Shown one piece after another: positions 3,807 through 8,637 of a stretch of 64,000 nucleotides of DNA (position 1 is its first letter; each line of letters opens with the position of its first letter). The stretch lies in NCBI GenBank assembly GCA_024235695.1, contig JACKLX010000001.1, positions 186,001-250,000 on the forward strand, read 5' to 3'. Under the pieces are notes generated by a model, which saw only the letters and a program-made list of their open reading frames with translations, had not been told where the DNA came from and ran no database searches. The stretch is from Accumulibacter sp. (GTDB lineage: Bacteria > Pseudomonadota > Gammaproteobacteria > Burkholderiales > Rhodocyclaceae). The translations under genes were made by a program, and so were the position numbers.

Positions 3807-4499
3807 TCATGGCTCGCGCCGCAGGACGTCGAGCGTTGCCGAACGATAATCGCGCCGATAGAGGACGATCAGGATGCTCACCGACAGGAAGCCCAGGACC
3901 AGCGGACTGAGCAACCAGCCCGACGCCGCAAGGCCAAAATAGTAGGCACGGATGCCGCGGTTGAAATCGTCGCCGGCGAGGTTGTGGGCGCCCGCCACGC
4001 GACGGGCGTAGCGTTCGACCTGCGGGTCGTCGCTGCGGCCCAGCGGTGCCGCGCCGATCAGGATCGACAGCAGGTTGAACTGGCGTAGAGCCCAGGTGAA
4101 CTTGAAGTAGCCATAGACGAAACTGGCCAGCACCAGCATCAGCTTGATTTCGAGCAGTTCGCGACTGCCGGTGCCGCCGAGCGCCAGATCGGCGGAAAAG
4201 CTCATCAGCTTGTCGGCGGCGCCGAGCGCGGCGACCAGGCCGGCGATGATGTAGATGGTGGTATTGGCGTAGAAAGAAACACTGCCCATCAGGTTGCCGA
4301 TCAGTGTCGAGTCGGTCACCCGGATGTCGCGTTCCAGCATTCGCTCCGCCCAGTCGCGCCGGTAGGCGTGCAGGTGTCCGATCAGACCCTCGCAAGACCA
4401 GCGGCTATGCTCGGAAAACCAGGTGTAGCCGGCCCAGCAGCTGACGAAGACGAGCAGGGCCAGCCAGTCGGTCAGGGAGAGATGCGAAAGGGCGCGCAT
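3807..4499 (-). CDS. DUF599 family membrane protein
   Basis: A 230-aa integral membrane protein. It has a first helix right after the start (LALLVFVSCWAGYTWF), two central helices around NTTIYIIAGLVAALGAADKL and LEIKLMLVLASFVYGYFKF, and a final pair near the C-terminus. The FRQFN-like stretch and the overall spacing match DUF599. No enzymatic motif is visible and no function is established for the family. It is the first gene of a probable pair with rarD. A weak -10-like hexamer (CAAGAT) sits 6 nt before the ATG. Confidence 0.8.
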   Translation of the reverse strand: MRALSHLSLTDWLALLVFVSCWAGYTWFSEHSRWSCEGLIGHLHAYRRDWAERMLERDIRVTDSTLIGNLMGSVSFYANTTIYIIAGLVAALGAADKLMSFSADLALGGTGSRELLEIKLMLVLASFVYGYFKFTWALRQFNLLSILIGAAPLGRSDDPQVERYARRVAGAHNLAGDDFNRGIRAYYFGLAASGWLLSPLVLGFLSVSILIVLYRRDYRSATLDVLRREP

Positions 4500-4722
4500 C
4501 GGGGCATCTTGCCACAGAACGCCCCGCCTCCGACATCGGGCTGGCAGCTGACCGGCGATCTGGCGCCGACCACCGACCGCCGGCTAGTGACTTGCCGATT
4601 GCCGATCGGGCACCGATCGCTGCCGGCAGGAACCAGCCCTTTGCCACCGGATAGCCGAGTGTCGCATGGTCGGTTGCGTGCCGTTCCTCCTCGATGGCGG
4701 TGAACGAACGGTCACGACGTTG

Positions 4723-6519
4723 TCACGCTCCTCCGCTGCCGGCGCCGGCGGTGGCGAGTCGTCCGACCAGCCAGTAGGTGAGCAGCAACGCCCCGAGGTG
4801 GTAGGCGGTGTTGAACAGCACGCCGTACTGGGCGTGGATCAGCACCGTCAGCGCCAGGTACAGCAGCACTCCGGCAGCGACCAGCAGGCGTCGCGACAGC
4901 GGCCGCAGGGCCGGCCGAAACAGCCGCAGCCAGCCGCCGGCAGCGGCCATGGCAACCATCAGCAGCATCTGCAGCAGCGGGTCGAGGCTGCGGACGTGTA
5001 TGCCCTGCAGCAGGTTATTGACGATGTCGGCGTGCAGCTCGACGCCGTGGCGAAGCTCCGAGCCGAGTCCGCGGCGAACGAGAAACTGGTCGTTGCCGGC
5101 CCGGGCGTCGCCGATCAGGACGATTTTCCCGGCCAGCTCGCCGGCAGCGATCGTCGCCGCCGGGCCGGTGAGCTGTTCGTAGTCGTAGCGCTGCGGTGCC
5201 TGCCGCCAGGCCTGCAGCGGCGCCAGGCGGATCAGCGACTCGGCGACGTCGTCGCCGGCCGACAGCAGCGGGCAATCGTTGCGCGCCTGTCCGGAGCCGT
5301 CGACGCTCGTCGTCACCGGCTGCAGCGGCCCTTGCCAGAGCGTCTTGCCGGTCTCGCTGACGACCGTCAGTTCGCGCCGCTGATCGTCCACTGCCAGCGT
5401 CGTACCGCCGACCGCAAGGGTAGCGATGGCGGCGAGCTTGCGGCTGACGCGATCGATCGGCGCGCCGTCCGGCGAGCCGGCGACGGCGGTGGGAGTTGCT
5501 CGCAGTGCGAACTTGAGCGCGGCGATCGGGGCGACCGAAGCGTAGCCGAGCCGGCCGCCGACGCAAAGCAGGCCGGTCGCGACGCCGGCAAGGCCGGGGA
5601 TCACCGCCGGCTGCTCGCCGATCAGCCGATTGACGCCGACGATCACCTGCGTTCCGCGCTGCCTGGCGCGGGCGACGGCGGCGGTCAGCTCGGCGTCGGC
5701 CGCCGACGGCCGCTCGAAATAGGCGTCGAAGACAATCACGCCGGCGCCGGCATCGACCAGCCGGTCGATCGCGCGGGCGTGCTCGCGGCGCCACGCGGGC
5801 CCGAAGCTGCCCAGACGTGCTTCGGATTTCTCGTCGAACCCGGCAATGACGATGCGCTCGCTGACCGGCACACTGGCGACCAGGTCGCCGAGCGCCATGG
5901 TATAACTTTCGATGCGGGTATCGATCCGGAGCGCGTCGAAGAGCTGCACCCAGGCGAACAGGACCATCAGCAGCGCGATGCCGGCGACGCTGTAGCGCCG
6001 CCACTTGCGGACGCGTTCGCCGTTCATCAGCTGCGCGAACTGGCCGAGCAGCGACGGCCGCCGTTCGATGCTGCGGATCAGCGCGTCGAGGTCGAACTGG
6101 AAGCGCGTGTCGTCGAGTGGGTGTGCCTGATGGCGCGCCAGTGCGCCGATCGCCGCCGGCAGTTGCTTGATGTCCGGCATGCGGGCGCCACCGACCAGCA
6201 CCGGGATCAGGCGCTTACCCTGCTGCAGTGCCGCGGCGAGTTCGTAACGGACGAAATCATCGGCCTGATCGAGTCGCCGGCCCTGCTCGTTGTGCGCGCC
6301 CAGCCATTCGGGACCGATCAGCGCAATGACAATGTCACTGGCGCCGACACGGTGGTCGAGGACGGTGATGAAGTCGTCGCCGGGCGCGATCTGGCCGATG
6401 TCCATGAACACGCGATCGGCGCCAAAGTGCGCGCTGAGGTGATCGTAGAGTCGCCCGGCGTAGGCGATGCTGTCTTCGCGACGGTAGCTGATGAACAGCC
6501 GGGGCGCTTCCTTCGCCAC
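4723..6519 (-). CDS. TIR-CHASE2 membrane protein
   Basis: A 598-aa protein with an unusual order of domains. Residues 5-150 form a TIR domain: FISYRREDS, the VFMDIGQIAPGDDF loop, VIALIGPEWL, and Glu93 in YELAAAL, where bacterial and SARM1-type TIR NADases carry their catalytic Glu. One transmembrane helix follows at ~176-194. A CHASE2-like extracytoplasmic domain spans ~200-505 (IVIAGFDEKS, VIVFDAYFERP, GKIVLIGDARAG, then GVELHADIVNNLL). Three helices end the protein at ~515-590. In most CHASE2 proteins the output domain follows the last helices; here it precedes the sensor. The FecR-like lipoprotein gene lies ~100 nt upstream on the same strand. NAD hydrolysis is an inference from the Glu, not shown. 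Confidence 0.85.
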   Translation of the reverse strand: MAKEAPRLFISYRREDSIAYAGRLYDHLSAHFGADRVFMDIGQIAPGDDFITVLDHRVGASDIVIALIGPEWLGAHNEQGRRLDQADDFVRYELAAALQQGKRLIPVLVGGARMPDIKQLPAAIGALARHQAHPLDDTRFQFDLDALIRSIERRPSLLGQFAQLMNGERVRKWRRYSVAGIALLMVLFAWVQLFDALRIDTRIESYTMALGDLVASVPVSERIVIAGFDEKSEARLGSFGPAWRREHARAIDRLVDAGAGVIVFDAYFERPSAADAELTAAVARARQRGTQVIVGVNRLIGEQPAVIPGLAGVATGLLCVGGRLGYASVAPIAALKFALRATPTAVAGSPDGAPIDRVSRKLAAIATLAVGGTTLAVDDQRRELTVVSETGKTLWQGPLQPVTTSVDGSGQARNDCPLLSAGDDVAESLIRLAPLQAWRQAPQRYDYEQLTGPAATIAAGELAGKIVLIGDARAGNDQFLVRRGLGSELRHGVELHADIVNNLLQGIHVRSLDPLLQMLLMVAMAAAGGWLRLFRPALRPLSRRLLVAAGVLLYLALTVLIHAQYGVLFNTAYHLGALLLTYWLVGRLATAGAGSGGA

Positions 6520-6618
6520 GGGCAGATCGCCGGCGTTCAGCCGCCTGGCGGCGCGGGCGGGCGATACCGTCGCGCCGGGCAGTCCGCCGATCGCCGCCGC
6601 CGGCCCGGCCGCTCGGCC

Positions 6619-7515
6619 TCAACGCACATCGATGCCGCTGGACGACGGTATTTGCGTCGTCGGGAACCGTGTTGCCGGAATTTGTGTCGTCGGTATCCGC
6701 GTCGGAAACCGCGTCGCCGGAGTCGGTGTCGTCGGAGTCGGTGTCGTCGGCACCCGCGTCGGTGGCGTCTGCTGCGGTGACTGCCAGCCGCTGTCGTGAT
6801 CATCGCGCGAATCACTGGCCGCGGCGCCGACTCCGATGGCAAAAAGGCCGCCGACCAGCGCCGCCGTCCCGAAATTGCTGGGTTTTGGCACCAGCCGGTC
6901 GAGTTCGCGGATGCGGTTGCGGATGTACTCGACCTCGCCGGGGCTTGCCCGGCCGACTTCAACCAGGTCGGCGCCGGCGATCGACGCCGCCTGGCCGACG
7001 CCGAGCGAGGTTCTCGTCCAGCGCCCGATGTTCGACGTCAGCCCGACCCGGTCCTCGGCGACGACCACCCTGACCCGCCGCTCGGGCTCGACCCGGACGA
7101 GATACTCGGTGCCTTCCGAGCCGGCGGTGGCGTACTCGGTCTGGACCTTGAAATAACCCTTGACCTTGACCAGGACCTCACCGAAGAAGACGAAGATCGA
7201 GCCCAGCCGGACGTGCGTCGCCGGCTGCACGTAGACCCGCGCACCGTCGGCGAAGCTGATCACGGCGGTCGATTGGGCGTTGGTTTCGATCTCGTCGCCA
7301 GGCTGCAACGGCATGCTGTCCTTCGCCTGCGAGCGAACGCCCTGGTGGATGACGTCGACGCCACCGATCGCGCCGCCCTTGACCAGTCGCCCTTCCTGGA
7401 CGACGTTGAGGCTCGTCGCCGCGCAGCCGCCGAGGGCGACAGCGAGGACCAGAAGCAGGCCGTGAAGAACCGGGGACCTGCCGGATGTTGCCTCTCTCTG
7501 AATGCCGGATGTCAT
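6619..7515 (-). CDS. FecR-domain lipoprotein with Thr/Pro-rich tail
   Basis: A 298-aa lipoprotein. The ATG at 7515 has a GGAGGG Shine-Dalgarno; a signal peptide ends in a lipobox LGGC with Cys31 followed by Ala, which predicts outer-membrane sorting. The central FecR-like domain includes LQPGDEIETNAQSTAVISF, ARVYVQPATHVRLGSI and YATAGSEGTEYLVRV. A helical stretch (VEYIRNRIRELDRLV) and a short hydrophobic patch (ALVGGLFAIGVGAAA) follow. The last ~60 residues are low-complexity TPT/ATRFPTTQIP repeats. FecR-like domains are often encoded beside CHASE2 proteins, and the TIR-CHASE2 gene is directly downstream. A ligand-binding or signal-relay role is inferred. Confidence 0.82.
   Translation of the reverse strand: MTSGIQREATSGRSPVLHGLLLVLAVALGGCAATSLNVVQEGRLVKGGAIGGVDVIHQGVRSQAKDSMPLQPGDEIETNAQSTAVISFADGARVYVQPATHVRLGSIFVFFGEVLVKVKGYFKVQTEYATAGSEGTEYLVRVEPERRVRVVVAEDRVGLTSNIGRWTRTSLGVGQAASIAGADLVEVGRASPGEVEYIRNRIRELDRLVPKPSNFGTAALVGGLFAIGVGAAASDSRDDHDSGWQSPQQTPPTRVPTTPTPTTPTPATRFPTRIPTTQIPATRFPTTQIPSSSGIDVR
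6640..6780. repeat. Imperfect tandem repeat encoding the Thr/Pro tail
   Basis: On the plus strand, units of the form GTCGGNNNCGGTGTCGTCGGA and close variants recur every ~18-24 nt. They encode the TPTTPTP and RFPTTQIP motifs of the FecR-like lipoprotein tail. Such tracts usually vary in copy number between strains. Confidence 0.6.
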
Positions 7516-7818
7516 GCGAACGCCCTCCATACCGCGGTGCAAACCTGGCGGCGGCTTGCCAGCAGCGGGCGCTGGTGGCGAGCGACGGCCACGAGTCCAG
7601 GCCAGGGTGGCTGTTCCTCGACTGCCGGCAAACGAAACGGCGACCGCTCGCGCAGTCGAGGTATTGGTTCACGAGTATATTCAGCGCGAGCAGCAAAGAC
7701 AAACGCGGCCTGCCGCTGGTGGCGATTGTCCGGCGGTGTCGCCACGCTGCTCGCCGGGACGAGGCGGTGTCAAGGGCAAGGGGCGGCGACGTCCCGGACA
7801 ACGGGAAAGGACAGGGAA
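7516..7818. other. Divergent intergenic region
   Basis: A gap of 303 nt between the FecR-like lipoprotein (minus) and the membrane protein (plus). It contains the minus-strand promoter described at 7674-7702. I see no convincing plus-strand promoter, RNA gene or supported short ORF; open frames crossing it are extensions of neighbouring frames. Confidence 0.6.
7674..7702 (-). promoter_or_regulatory. Sigma-70 promoter for the fecR-like / TIR-CHASE2 unit
   Basis: Reading the minus strand: TTGTCT, a 17-nt spacer, then TATACT, at 7702-7697 and 7679-7674. It points at the lipoprotein gene and leaves a leader of about 150 nt before the start at 7515. It lies in the most AT-rich part of the divergent gap. 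Confidence 0.55.
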
Positions 7819-8637
7819 ATGCACATCGTGTACCGATTCTTGATGATCCTGGCGGTCGTCGGGCTGGTCGCCTCCTCGTGGTTGGCGCCGCTGGACTCGG
7901 TCGCCATGCACCAGGCCGAAGCCGGCCTGAAGCGGGCGCTGGTCAGTTTTGCGACCGCCAGAGCCTTGAACGCGGTGATCTCGGTCGCGCAGGGAACCGA
8001 AGTGTCGATGCAGCCGGCCGGGATGGGGGTGGTACTCACTCCAGGGCAGCTGCTCGATCCGGTCAACGATCTGGTCGAGCAGTTTTCGCATCTGATGCTG
8101 GCCGCCAGCGTCGCTTTCGGCGTTCAGAAAGTGCTGATCAGCATCGGCGCGTACTGGGTGATCTCACTGCTGTTGACCGCGGTGGCGCTGGCCTGGGCAT
8201 GGTGCCACCTGCGACAGCAAACGCCGCCCGCCTGGCTCTCGAGAAGCCTGATCATCATCGTCATGCTGCGCTTTGCCGTTCCGGCGGTCGGCGTCGGCAG
8301 CGACCTGCTGTTCGAACAATTCCTGGCTGCCGACTACGACGCCAGCCAGCAGATCATCAGTGCGGCGCCGGCGCGGGTCGCCAGCCTCGACCTGCCGCTG
8401 CCGCCGGCTTCCGCCGAACAGAGCCTGGTCGAAAGGATCCGTTCGTGGTGGTCACACGACGTCGATCTGAAGGCGCGCTTCGATGCCCTGCAGCAGGCTG
8501 CCGAGCAGGCCACCGAGCACATCATCACGCTGATCGTGATCTTCCTGCTGCAGACCCTGCTGATCCCGCTGCTGCTCCTGTGGGCCTTGTATGGTCTGGC
8601 AAGCAGCGCTTTCGACACGCTGCGGGGAAATGGCTGA
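7819..8637 (+). CDS. Conserved-looking membrane protein of unknown function
   Basis: 272 aa. The ATG at 7819 follows AAAGGACAGGGAA, a fair ribosome-binding site, and starts with a membrane anchor (FLMILAVVGLVASSWLAPL). Residues ~20-95 look extracytoplasmic. Two hydrophobic segments follow (YWVISLLLTAVALAWAW and LIIIVMLRFAVPAVGV), then a second soluble region with an amphipathic helix rich in Ala/Glu, and a C-terminal helix (TLIVIFLLQTLLIPLLLLW). I do not recognise a family. It is divergent from the FecR/TIR-CHASE2 unit and lies 59 nt upstream of uvrD. Confidence 0.75.
   Translation: MHIVYRFLMILAVVGLVASSWLAPLDSVAMHQAEAGLKRALVSFATARALNAVISVAQGTEVSMQPAGMGVVLTPGQLLDPVNDLVEQFSHLMLAASVAFGVQKVLISIGAYWVISLLLTAVALAWAWCHLRQQTPPAWLSRSLIIIVMLRFAVPAVGVGSDLLFEQFLAADYDASQQIISAAPARVASLDLPLPPASAEQSLVERIRSWWSHDVDLKARFDALQQAAEQATEHIITLIVIFLLQTLLIPLLLLWALYGLASSAFDTLRGNG

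Follow-up and report, generated by a model that had tools for sequence, protein, structure and literature searches.

A FecR-domain lipoprotein gene kept beside a TIR-CHASE2 receptor gene in Accumulibacter and its relatives

Exported FecR-domain proteins encoded beside CHASE2 receptors are known from the BiofilmReg-type operons of Burkholderia and its relatives, in which a LysM-FecR protein accompanies a CHASE2 histidine kinase with one plus three transmembrane helices and a C-terminal PAS-kinase output, mostly together with a response regulator gene (PMC5192318). In Trichodesmium erythraeum, a cytoplasmic effector of the cell-death type, a metacaspase, stands N-terminal to a CHASE2 region that likewise has one plus three helices (PMC3501461; PMC2853523), and the related EACC2-caspase proteins also carry CHASE2 at the C-terminus (PMC8195603). 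The CHASE2 cyclases CyaD1, CyaD2 and CyaK of Sinorhizobium meliloti answer a plant protein via the outer-membrane protein NsrA, and an outer-membrane partner feeding CHASE2 therefore has a precedent (PMC13001267). Here we analyzed a window of 64,000 nucleotides from Accumulibacter sp. (assembly GCA_024235695.1, contig JACKLX010000001.1, positions 186,001 to 250,000), in which a gene for a FecR-like lipoprotein and a gene for a receptor combining a TIR domain with CHASE2 adjoin each other on the minus strand (Table 1). A model's reading of the bare letters, hereafter the sequence-only reading, had placed the pair there, and the open reading frames (ORFs) found bear this out.

In the receptor, Pfam TIR_2 (residues 9-117, 55.8 bits against a cut-off of 28) precedes CHASE2 (residues 183-527, 72.9 bits against 26.3), and an AlphaFold model built on 15 sequences (mean predicted local distance difference test score 78, predicted template modelling score 0.61) places a helix at residues 168-197, then an alpha/beta domain and then helices at 514-533, 540-565 and 571-593. 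Both agree with the topology predicted from the sequence alone, namely TIR, one helix, CHASE2 and three helices. The chain stops just past the last helix, with no C-terminal kinase or cyclase output, and the TIR domain is N-terminal. The CHASE2 part gave nothing significant against solved structures. On the evidence of the model, the output would be cytoplasmic either way, after the last helix as in the cyclases or before the first as for the TIR domain, so that the apparent inversion would require no change of the sensor. The inverted architecture is indeed present here, but it is not new in itself, since the cyanobacterial metacaspase-CHASE2 protein has it already and is the nearest architectural precedent (PMC3501461); it has a caspase in place of TIR, and a FecR partner, for which no search was made, is unmentioned in the accessible part of that source. 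Compared with BiofilmReg, the pair comprises a lipoprotein without LysM, an N-terminal TIR domain, no kinase domain and no regulator gene. With the S. meliloti system it would share the relay of a signal from an outer-membrane protein to a CHASE2 receptor, whereas NsrA is a beta-barrel and the output there is a cyclase (PMC13001267).

The FecR protein of the window matches Pfam FecR at 32.3 bits (cut-off 24), has no LysM match in Pfam and ends in a Pro/Thr-rich C-terminal tail. Its lipobox Cys is invariant in all 15 aligned FecR proteins, and the residue that follows is never Asp (it is Glu once, at locus L047). The absence of Asp behind the lipobox Cys is what outer-membrane sorting leads one to expect. 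In FecI-FecR-FecA signalling, by contrast, FecR has no lipid anchor, and genes for a sigma factor and a TonB receptor lie beside fecR; neither kind of gene was found among the eight window genes scanned.

To assess conservation, we scanned a contig collection (one genome per species, 84,980 species) with a five-sequence alignment and sorted the best 80 of 442 relatives by profile into 12 with TIR and CHASE2 and 68 with TIR alone; TIR-CHASE2 genes of greater divergence may lie outside these 80, whether accompanied by FecR or not. An adjacent FecR lipoprotein gene on the same strand accompanied 12 of the 12 TIR-CHASE2 genes versus none of the 68 TIR-only genes, some of whose loci are cut by contig ends. 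With the window and loci L005, L006, L145, L148, L154 and L215, and after removal of duplicate contigs, recognized by their length, there are 19 distinct pairs. Because the iterated FecR model had been built from these loci, which makes it partly circular, the pairs were rechecked with leave-one-out profiles; all 19 receptors had a same-strand FecR domain beside them (E values of 3e-41 or better). The sequence-only reading had made its interpretation depend on a conserved neighbourhood in relatives, and such a neighbourhood exists, although the 19 pairs are not 19 independent events because a few are closely related, L038 and L154 among them. The FecR gene lies upstream in 12 pairs and downstream in seven. 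The FecR-first order is that of Accumulibacter, with an Azonexus bin nesting among them, and the FecR-second order that of Aromatoleum, Thauera sp. 2A1 and one genome with the same genus label, two genomes of another genus of the family, a Burkholderiales metagenome-assembled genome (MAG) and a gammaproteobacterial MAG. Near the Nitrosospira TIR genes of two of the 68 TIR-only loci, opposite-strand ORFs of >1000 amino acids (L086:9831-12938 and L097:9202-12447, minus strand) have a weak FecR-like match, with near ends about 1.5 and 0.9 kb from the TIR gene.

The two partners have been inherited together. In a tree with the other CHASE2 receptors of the genus, 18 TIR-CHASE2 proteins group as a single clade in their CHASE2 parts (support 100/97), and so do the FecR partners of TIR-CHASE2 (98/93), the tree program giving long-branch warnings for both trees; the tree of TIR domains sets the Aromatoleum row apart from the others with weak support. 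Across 15 pairs, distances correlate at 0.96 between FecR and CHASE2 and at 0.93 between FecR and TIR (none of 5000 permutations as high), and the FecR-CHASE2 correlation is 0.91 among the nine FecR-first rows (0/5000) and 0.81 among the six FecR-second rows (11/5000). As single clades were obtained for both FecR and CHASE2, with correlated distances, the adjacency outlived a swap of gene order, and simple linkage would not explain well why it was kept. The mature FecR proteins of L045, L046, L047, L005 and L006 contain 10 to 18 Cys. In the FecR-second clade (L005:3234-4409, L006:3038-4384, L045:4547-5770, L046:7783-8781) the C-terminus carries repeated Cys-rich units with a WCC...C pattern and 14-18 Cys, for which no Pfam family matched; such clade-specific tails would fit a variable sensing end.

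TIR-CHASE2 is found in 11 of 28 genomes of the genus, at 11 of their 57 CHASE2 places and always with FecR, and in 13 of 395 sampled genomes of the family (group CHASE2 profile, E 1e-20). Beyond the window's own, the same profile found none in 368 other genomes of the class or 397 of the phylum; the family, class and phylum scans scored up to four candidates per genome at the first pass, so that misses are possible. Eight plasmid records matched in the TIR part only, and PHROGs gave no match.

FecR and CHASE2 also keep company where TIR is lacking. Of the 46 remaining CHASE2 places in the genus, 36 have a same-strand FecR gene no more than 1 kb away (34/40 when ORFs of at least 500 amino acids are counted; 19/46 with a gap of at most 100 bp), and in the window's assembly, which is 83.7% complete, the pair accounts for the sole CHASE2 and the sole FecR match. 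Six of the 46 were scanned with Pfam. Four are partnered by FecR and have GGDEF-EAL, cyclase (two) and histidine-kinase ATPase outputs; the two without a FecR neighbour are a cyclase (L195) and a protein without further domain (L155). The latter (L155:1535-3217, minus strand, genome G220) is a divergent CHASE2 protein with an N-terminal extension and no TIR or other Pfam domain match. The FecR partners of non-TIR receptors include LysM-FecR proteins and a small FecR protein, and the four checked all exceed the Pfam cut-off. Within 66 genomes of the class, window included, Pfam FecR lies within 2 kb of 14 of 67 CHASE2 genes (71 matches merged to 67), and 14 of 38 FecR matches have CHASE2 within 2 kb, all on the same strand; with the iterated FecR model, eight of 40 fetched class regions were positive and two more had FecR on the opposite strand. 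FecR beside CHASE2 was thus rejected as a universal rule (14/67 in the class genomes versus 36/46 in the genus). The sensor half, FecR-CHASE2, is a known theme, and TIR, one of its outputs, is the new element. As the sequence-only reading supposed, no paper describing a FecR/TIR-CHASE2 pair was found; most subscription papers lay outside the search, and absence from print is not established. In the accessible parts of two further sources, FecR and TIR appear as unrelated entries only (PMC12457778) and the word CHASE does not occur (TIR-domain survey, PMC7075850).

The TIR domain has a SARM1-like fold, and its nearest solved relatives are the NADase TIRs of SARM1 (enzymes that cleave nicotinamide adenine dinucleotide, NAD), not adaptors. 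Glu93, correctly numbered in the sequence-only reading, aligns with the catalytic Glu of SARM1 (residue 642 by hand count) and is invariant in alignments of homologues. Among the SARM1/TIR-1 NAD hydrolases, SARM1 is a soluble ARM-SAM-TIR protein, whereas the TIR domain here sits in a predicted membrane receptor. While the pairing, the topology and the TIR fold with its Glu stand as first described, the novelty of the inversion does not, and the likeness to eukaryotic TIR receptors holds as a functional analogy and not in domain order, which there runs from ectodomain through transmembrane helix to TIR (PMC7075850).

The pair is real and conserved; in it a known sensor module has a new output, and the mechanism proposed below is plausible. 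Our best reading, which we hold to be on balance probable, is a trans-envelope receptor in which a periplasmic signal gates an NAD-cleaving TIR enzyme. The FecR-domain protein would leave the cytoplasm and receive a lipid anchor, its most likely location being the inner leaflet of the outer membrane, and the TIR-CHASE2 protein would lie in the inner membrane with CHASE2 in the periplasm and TIR in the cytoplasm. A surface or envelope change would pass through the FecR lipoprotein to CHASE2, which would shift the packing of the four transmembrane helices and bring TIR domains together; the assembled TIRs would then cleave NAD+, yielding either lower NAD or an ADP-ribose-type product. The FecR-CHASE2 contact, the direction of signalling, TIR assembly, NAD cleavage and a benefit to the cell are the parts that we infer.

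Several points weigh against this trans-envelope receptor. The structure model has low confidence for the TIR loop 41-50 and for the linker between TIR and the transmembrane helix. A Glu at the position of Glu93 occurs in all 87 TIRs compared (19/19 from TIR-CHASE2, 68/68 without CHASE2); it is a family trait, was rejected as a discriminating sign of activity and, because TIRs without CHASE2 have it too, says little on this receptor in particular. Three of the seven scanned FecR lipoproteins of TIR-CHASE2 relatives fall under the Pfam FecR cut-off, one without any match, and four lie above it; those below still align with the others and are caught by the leave-one-out profiles. Outside the genus, the FecR-CHASE2 pairing is far from universal, and co-inherited neighbour genes correlate in distance even without contact. 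Finally, a FecR-domain protein in the regulon of the S. meliloti NsrA/CHASE2-cyclase system is dispensable for perception (PMC5498481).

Alternatively, the TIR domain may turn NAD+ into a cyclic ADP-ribose-type signal for an effector encoded elsewhere, which would make the protein a signalling receptor and not an NAD killer. The four checked FecR-partnered CHASE2 receptors, which make or relay signals, speak for this, as do the top PADLOC and NCBIfam matches of the TIR domain, which are Thoeris TIR proteins (ThsB and ThcB4 are related to it over about 68 residues). However, the NCBIfam ThcB4 match reaches 47.7 bits, far under the cut-off of 220, and no third gene recurs among 96 neighbour ORFs around 12 of the 19 pairs; we consider this alternative rather unlikely. 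Less probable still is a non-enzymatic TIR domain that recruits another protein, such as one of the cell's other TIR proteins, once CHASE2 is triggered. Scaffolding is the commoner TIR role (PMC7075850) and the window's assembly has three further TIR places, but the closest solved relatives are NADases and the catalytic-type Glu is present in 19 of 19, although the controls have it too. That the genes are neighbours by common descent alone, the FecR lipoprotein serving the envelope by itself, is very improbable: seven of the 11 genus pairs share one inherited site (part of which a contig end removes in genomes G201 and G199), and part of the adjacency is thus simple inheritance, but it persists where the site, the genus or the gene order differs, and FecR adjoins most other CHASE2 places of the genus as well.

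If the trans-envelope receptor is true, the pair places TIR chemistry under the control of a periplasmic or outer-membrane sensor. In any case it shows that one recurrent sensing module, FecR-CHASE2, accepts outputs of the cyclase, kinase, GGDEF-EAL or TIR type. To our knowledge, bacterial TIR enzymes with a known trigger mostly respond to intracellular events. A bolder proposal, which we regard as doubtful, is a class of surface receptors in which an outer-membrane lipoprotein and CHASE2 couple TIR-driven loss of NAD+ directly to something happening outside, such as the adsorption of a phage or damage to the envelope. Such a protein would be a TIR receptor for immunity or cell death with its sensing outside the cytoplasm, and would have arisen by output exchange on the common FecR-CHASE2 module. 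As all versions occur in one genus, output swaps would allow the FecR-CHASE2 signal to be read as cyclic AMP and not as NAD loss, which makes the question of CHASE2 sensing testable.

A single transcript covering both genes is likely from the sequence. The promoter expected ahead of the pair was found (the only one in 4400-7900, where shuffles expect 0.1), its TTTGT and GAATATACTC blocks are identical in six of six aligned upstream regions (the window and five other Accumulibacter loci), and no terminator-like site is reported in the gap between the genes. The FecR ORF was first listed from TTG 7542; we corrected its start to ATG 7515 because GGAGGG followed by ATG is conserved in the same six regions. 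The TIR-CHASE2 gene seemingly starts with GTG or TTG, not ATG, at five aligned loci (window, at 6519, L036, L037, L038 and L042), and a non-ATG start might keep a costly protein at a low level.

Table 1. Positions of the gene pair and associated features in the window
Feature	Position	Strand	Basis or remark
TIR-TM-CHASE2-3TM receptor (TM, transmembrane helix)	4723..6519	-	598 amino acids, GTG start; Pfam TIR_2 and CHASE2 above cut-off, AlphaFold model, homologues
TIR domain, predicted cytoplasmic, residues 1-151 including Glu93	6067..6519	-	
CHASE2 region, predicted periplasmic, about residues 199-513 between TM helices	4981..5925	-	Pfam CHASE2 183-527, secondary structure of the model
FecR-domain lipoprotein, 298 amino acids from ATG 7515; longest ORF 6619-7542	6619..7515	-	Pfam FecR, lipobox Cys, conserved GGAGGG and ATG
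Intergenic gap between the pair genes, 99 bp	6520..6618	-	Terminator-like site: none reported
Sigma-70-like promoter TTGTCT-17-TATACT upstream of the pair	7674..7702	-	1 found versus 0.1 expected; conserved blocks
Predicted membrane protein, divergent; doubtful third member	7819..8637	+	No Pfam match

The site shared by seven of the genus carriers has DUF599-EamA on one side and a UvrD-type helicase, with or without a membrane protein, on the other. In the window, DUF599 and EamA are the next minus-strand genes after the pair, beginning 223 bp further; at the pair's other sites neither gene was seen next to it, and the flanks fetched for the other four of the 11 carriers yielded no neighbour gene of the window. 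In seven genus genomes DUF599 occurs with no copy of the pair closer than 1.5 kb, and two of these genomes carry the pair elsewhere. The pair forms an accessory locus whose position changes now and then. The divergent membrane protein occurs in five of the 28 genus genomes (E 1e-20), each of which has the pair at this site, and was not found beside the site carriers L150 and L151.

The neighbour scan with PADLOC and Pfam covered 96 of 109 picked ORFs; the most frequent family occurred in three members, and a defence-island setting was rejected for want of a recurrent family. No Thoeris partner gene was seen beside the pair, and none of the ThsA type among the scanned window genes. No STALD (SLOG-type) match was obtained in the 28 genus genomes, where a control search gave no match either. 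When 18 of the 96 ORFs were scanned singly for defence genes, one matched DpdF (L045) and one mad3 (L040, 1e-34), the other 16 giving nothing at 1e-10; further PADLOC matches among the neighbour ORFs, not assigned to loci, include DrmC and mad8. The DpdF-type protein (L045:6742-9144, minus strand, PADLOC E 9e-266) of Thauera sp. 2A1 lies about 1 kb past the FecR gene. In the window itself, a minus-strand gene at 2132-2797 encodes a single protein with LprI-type and MliC-type lysozyme-inhibitor domains (Pfam).

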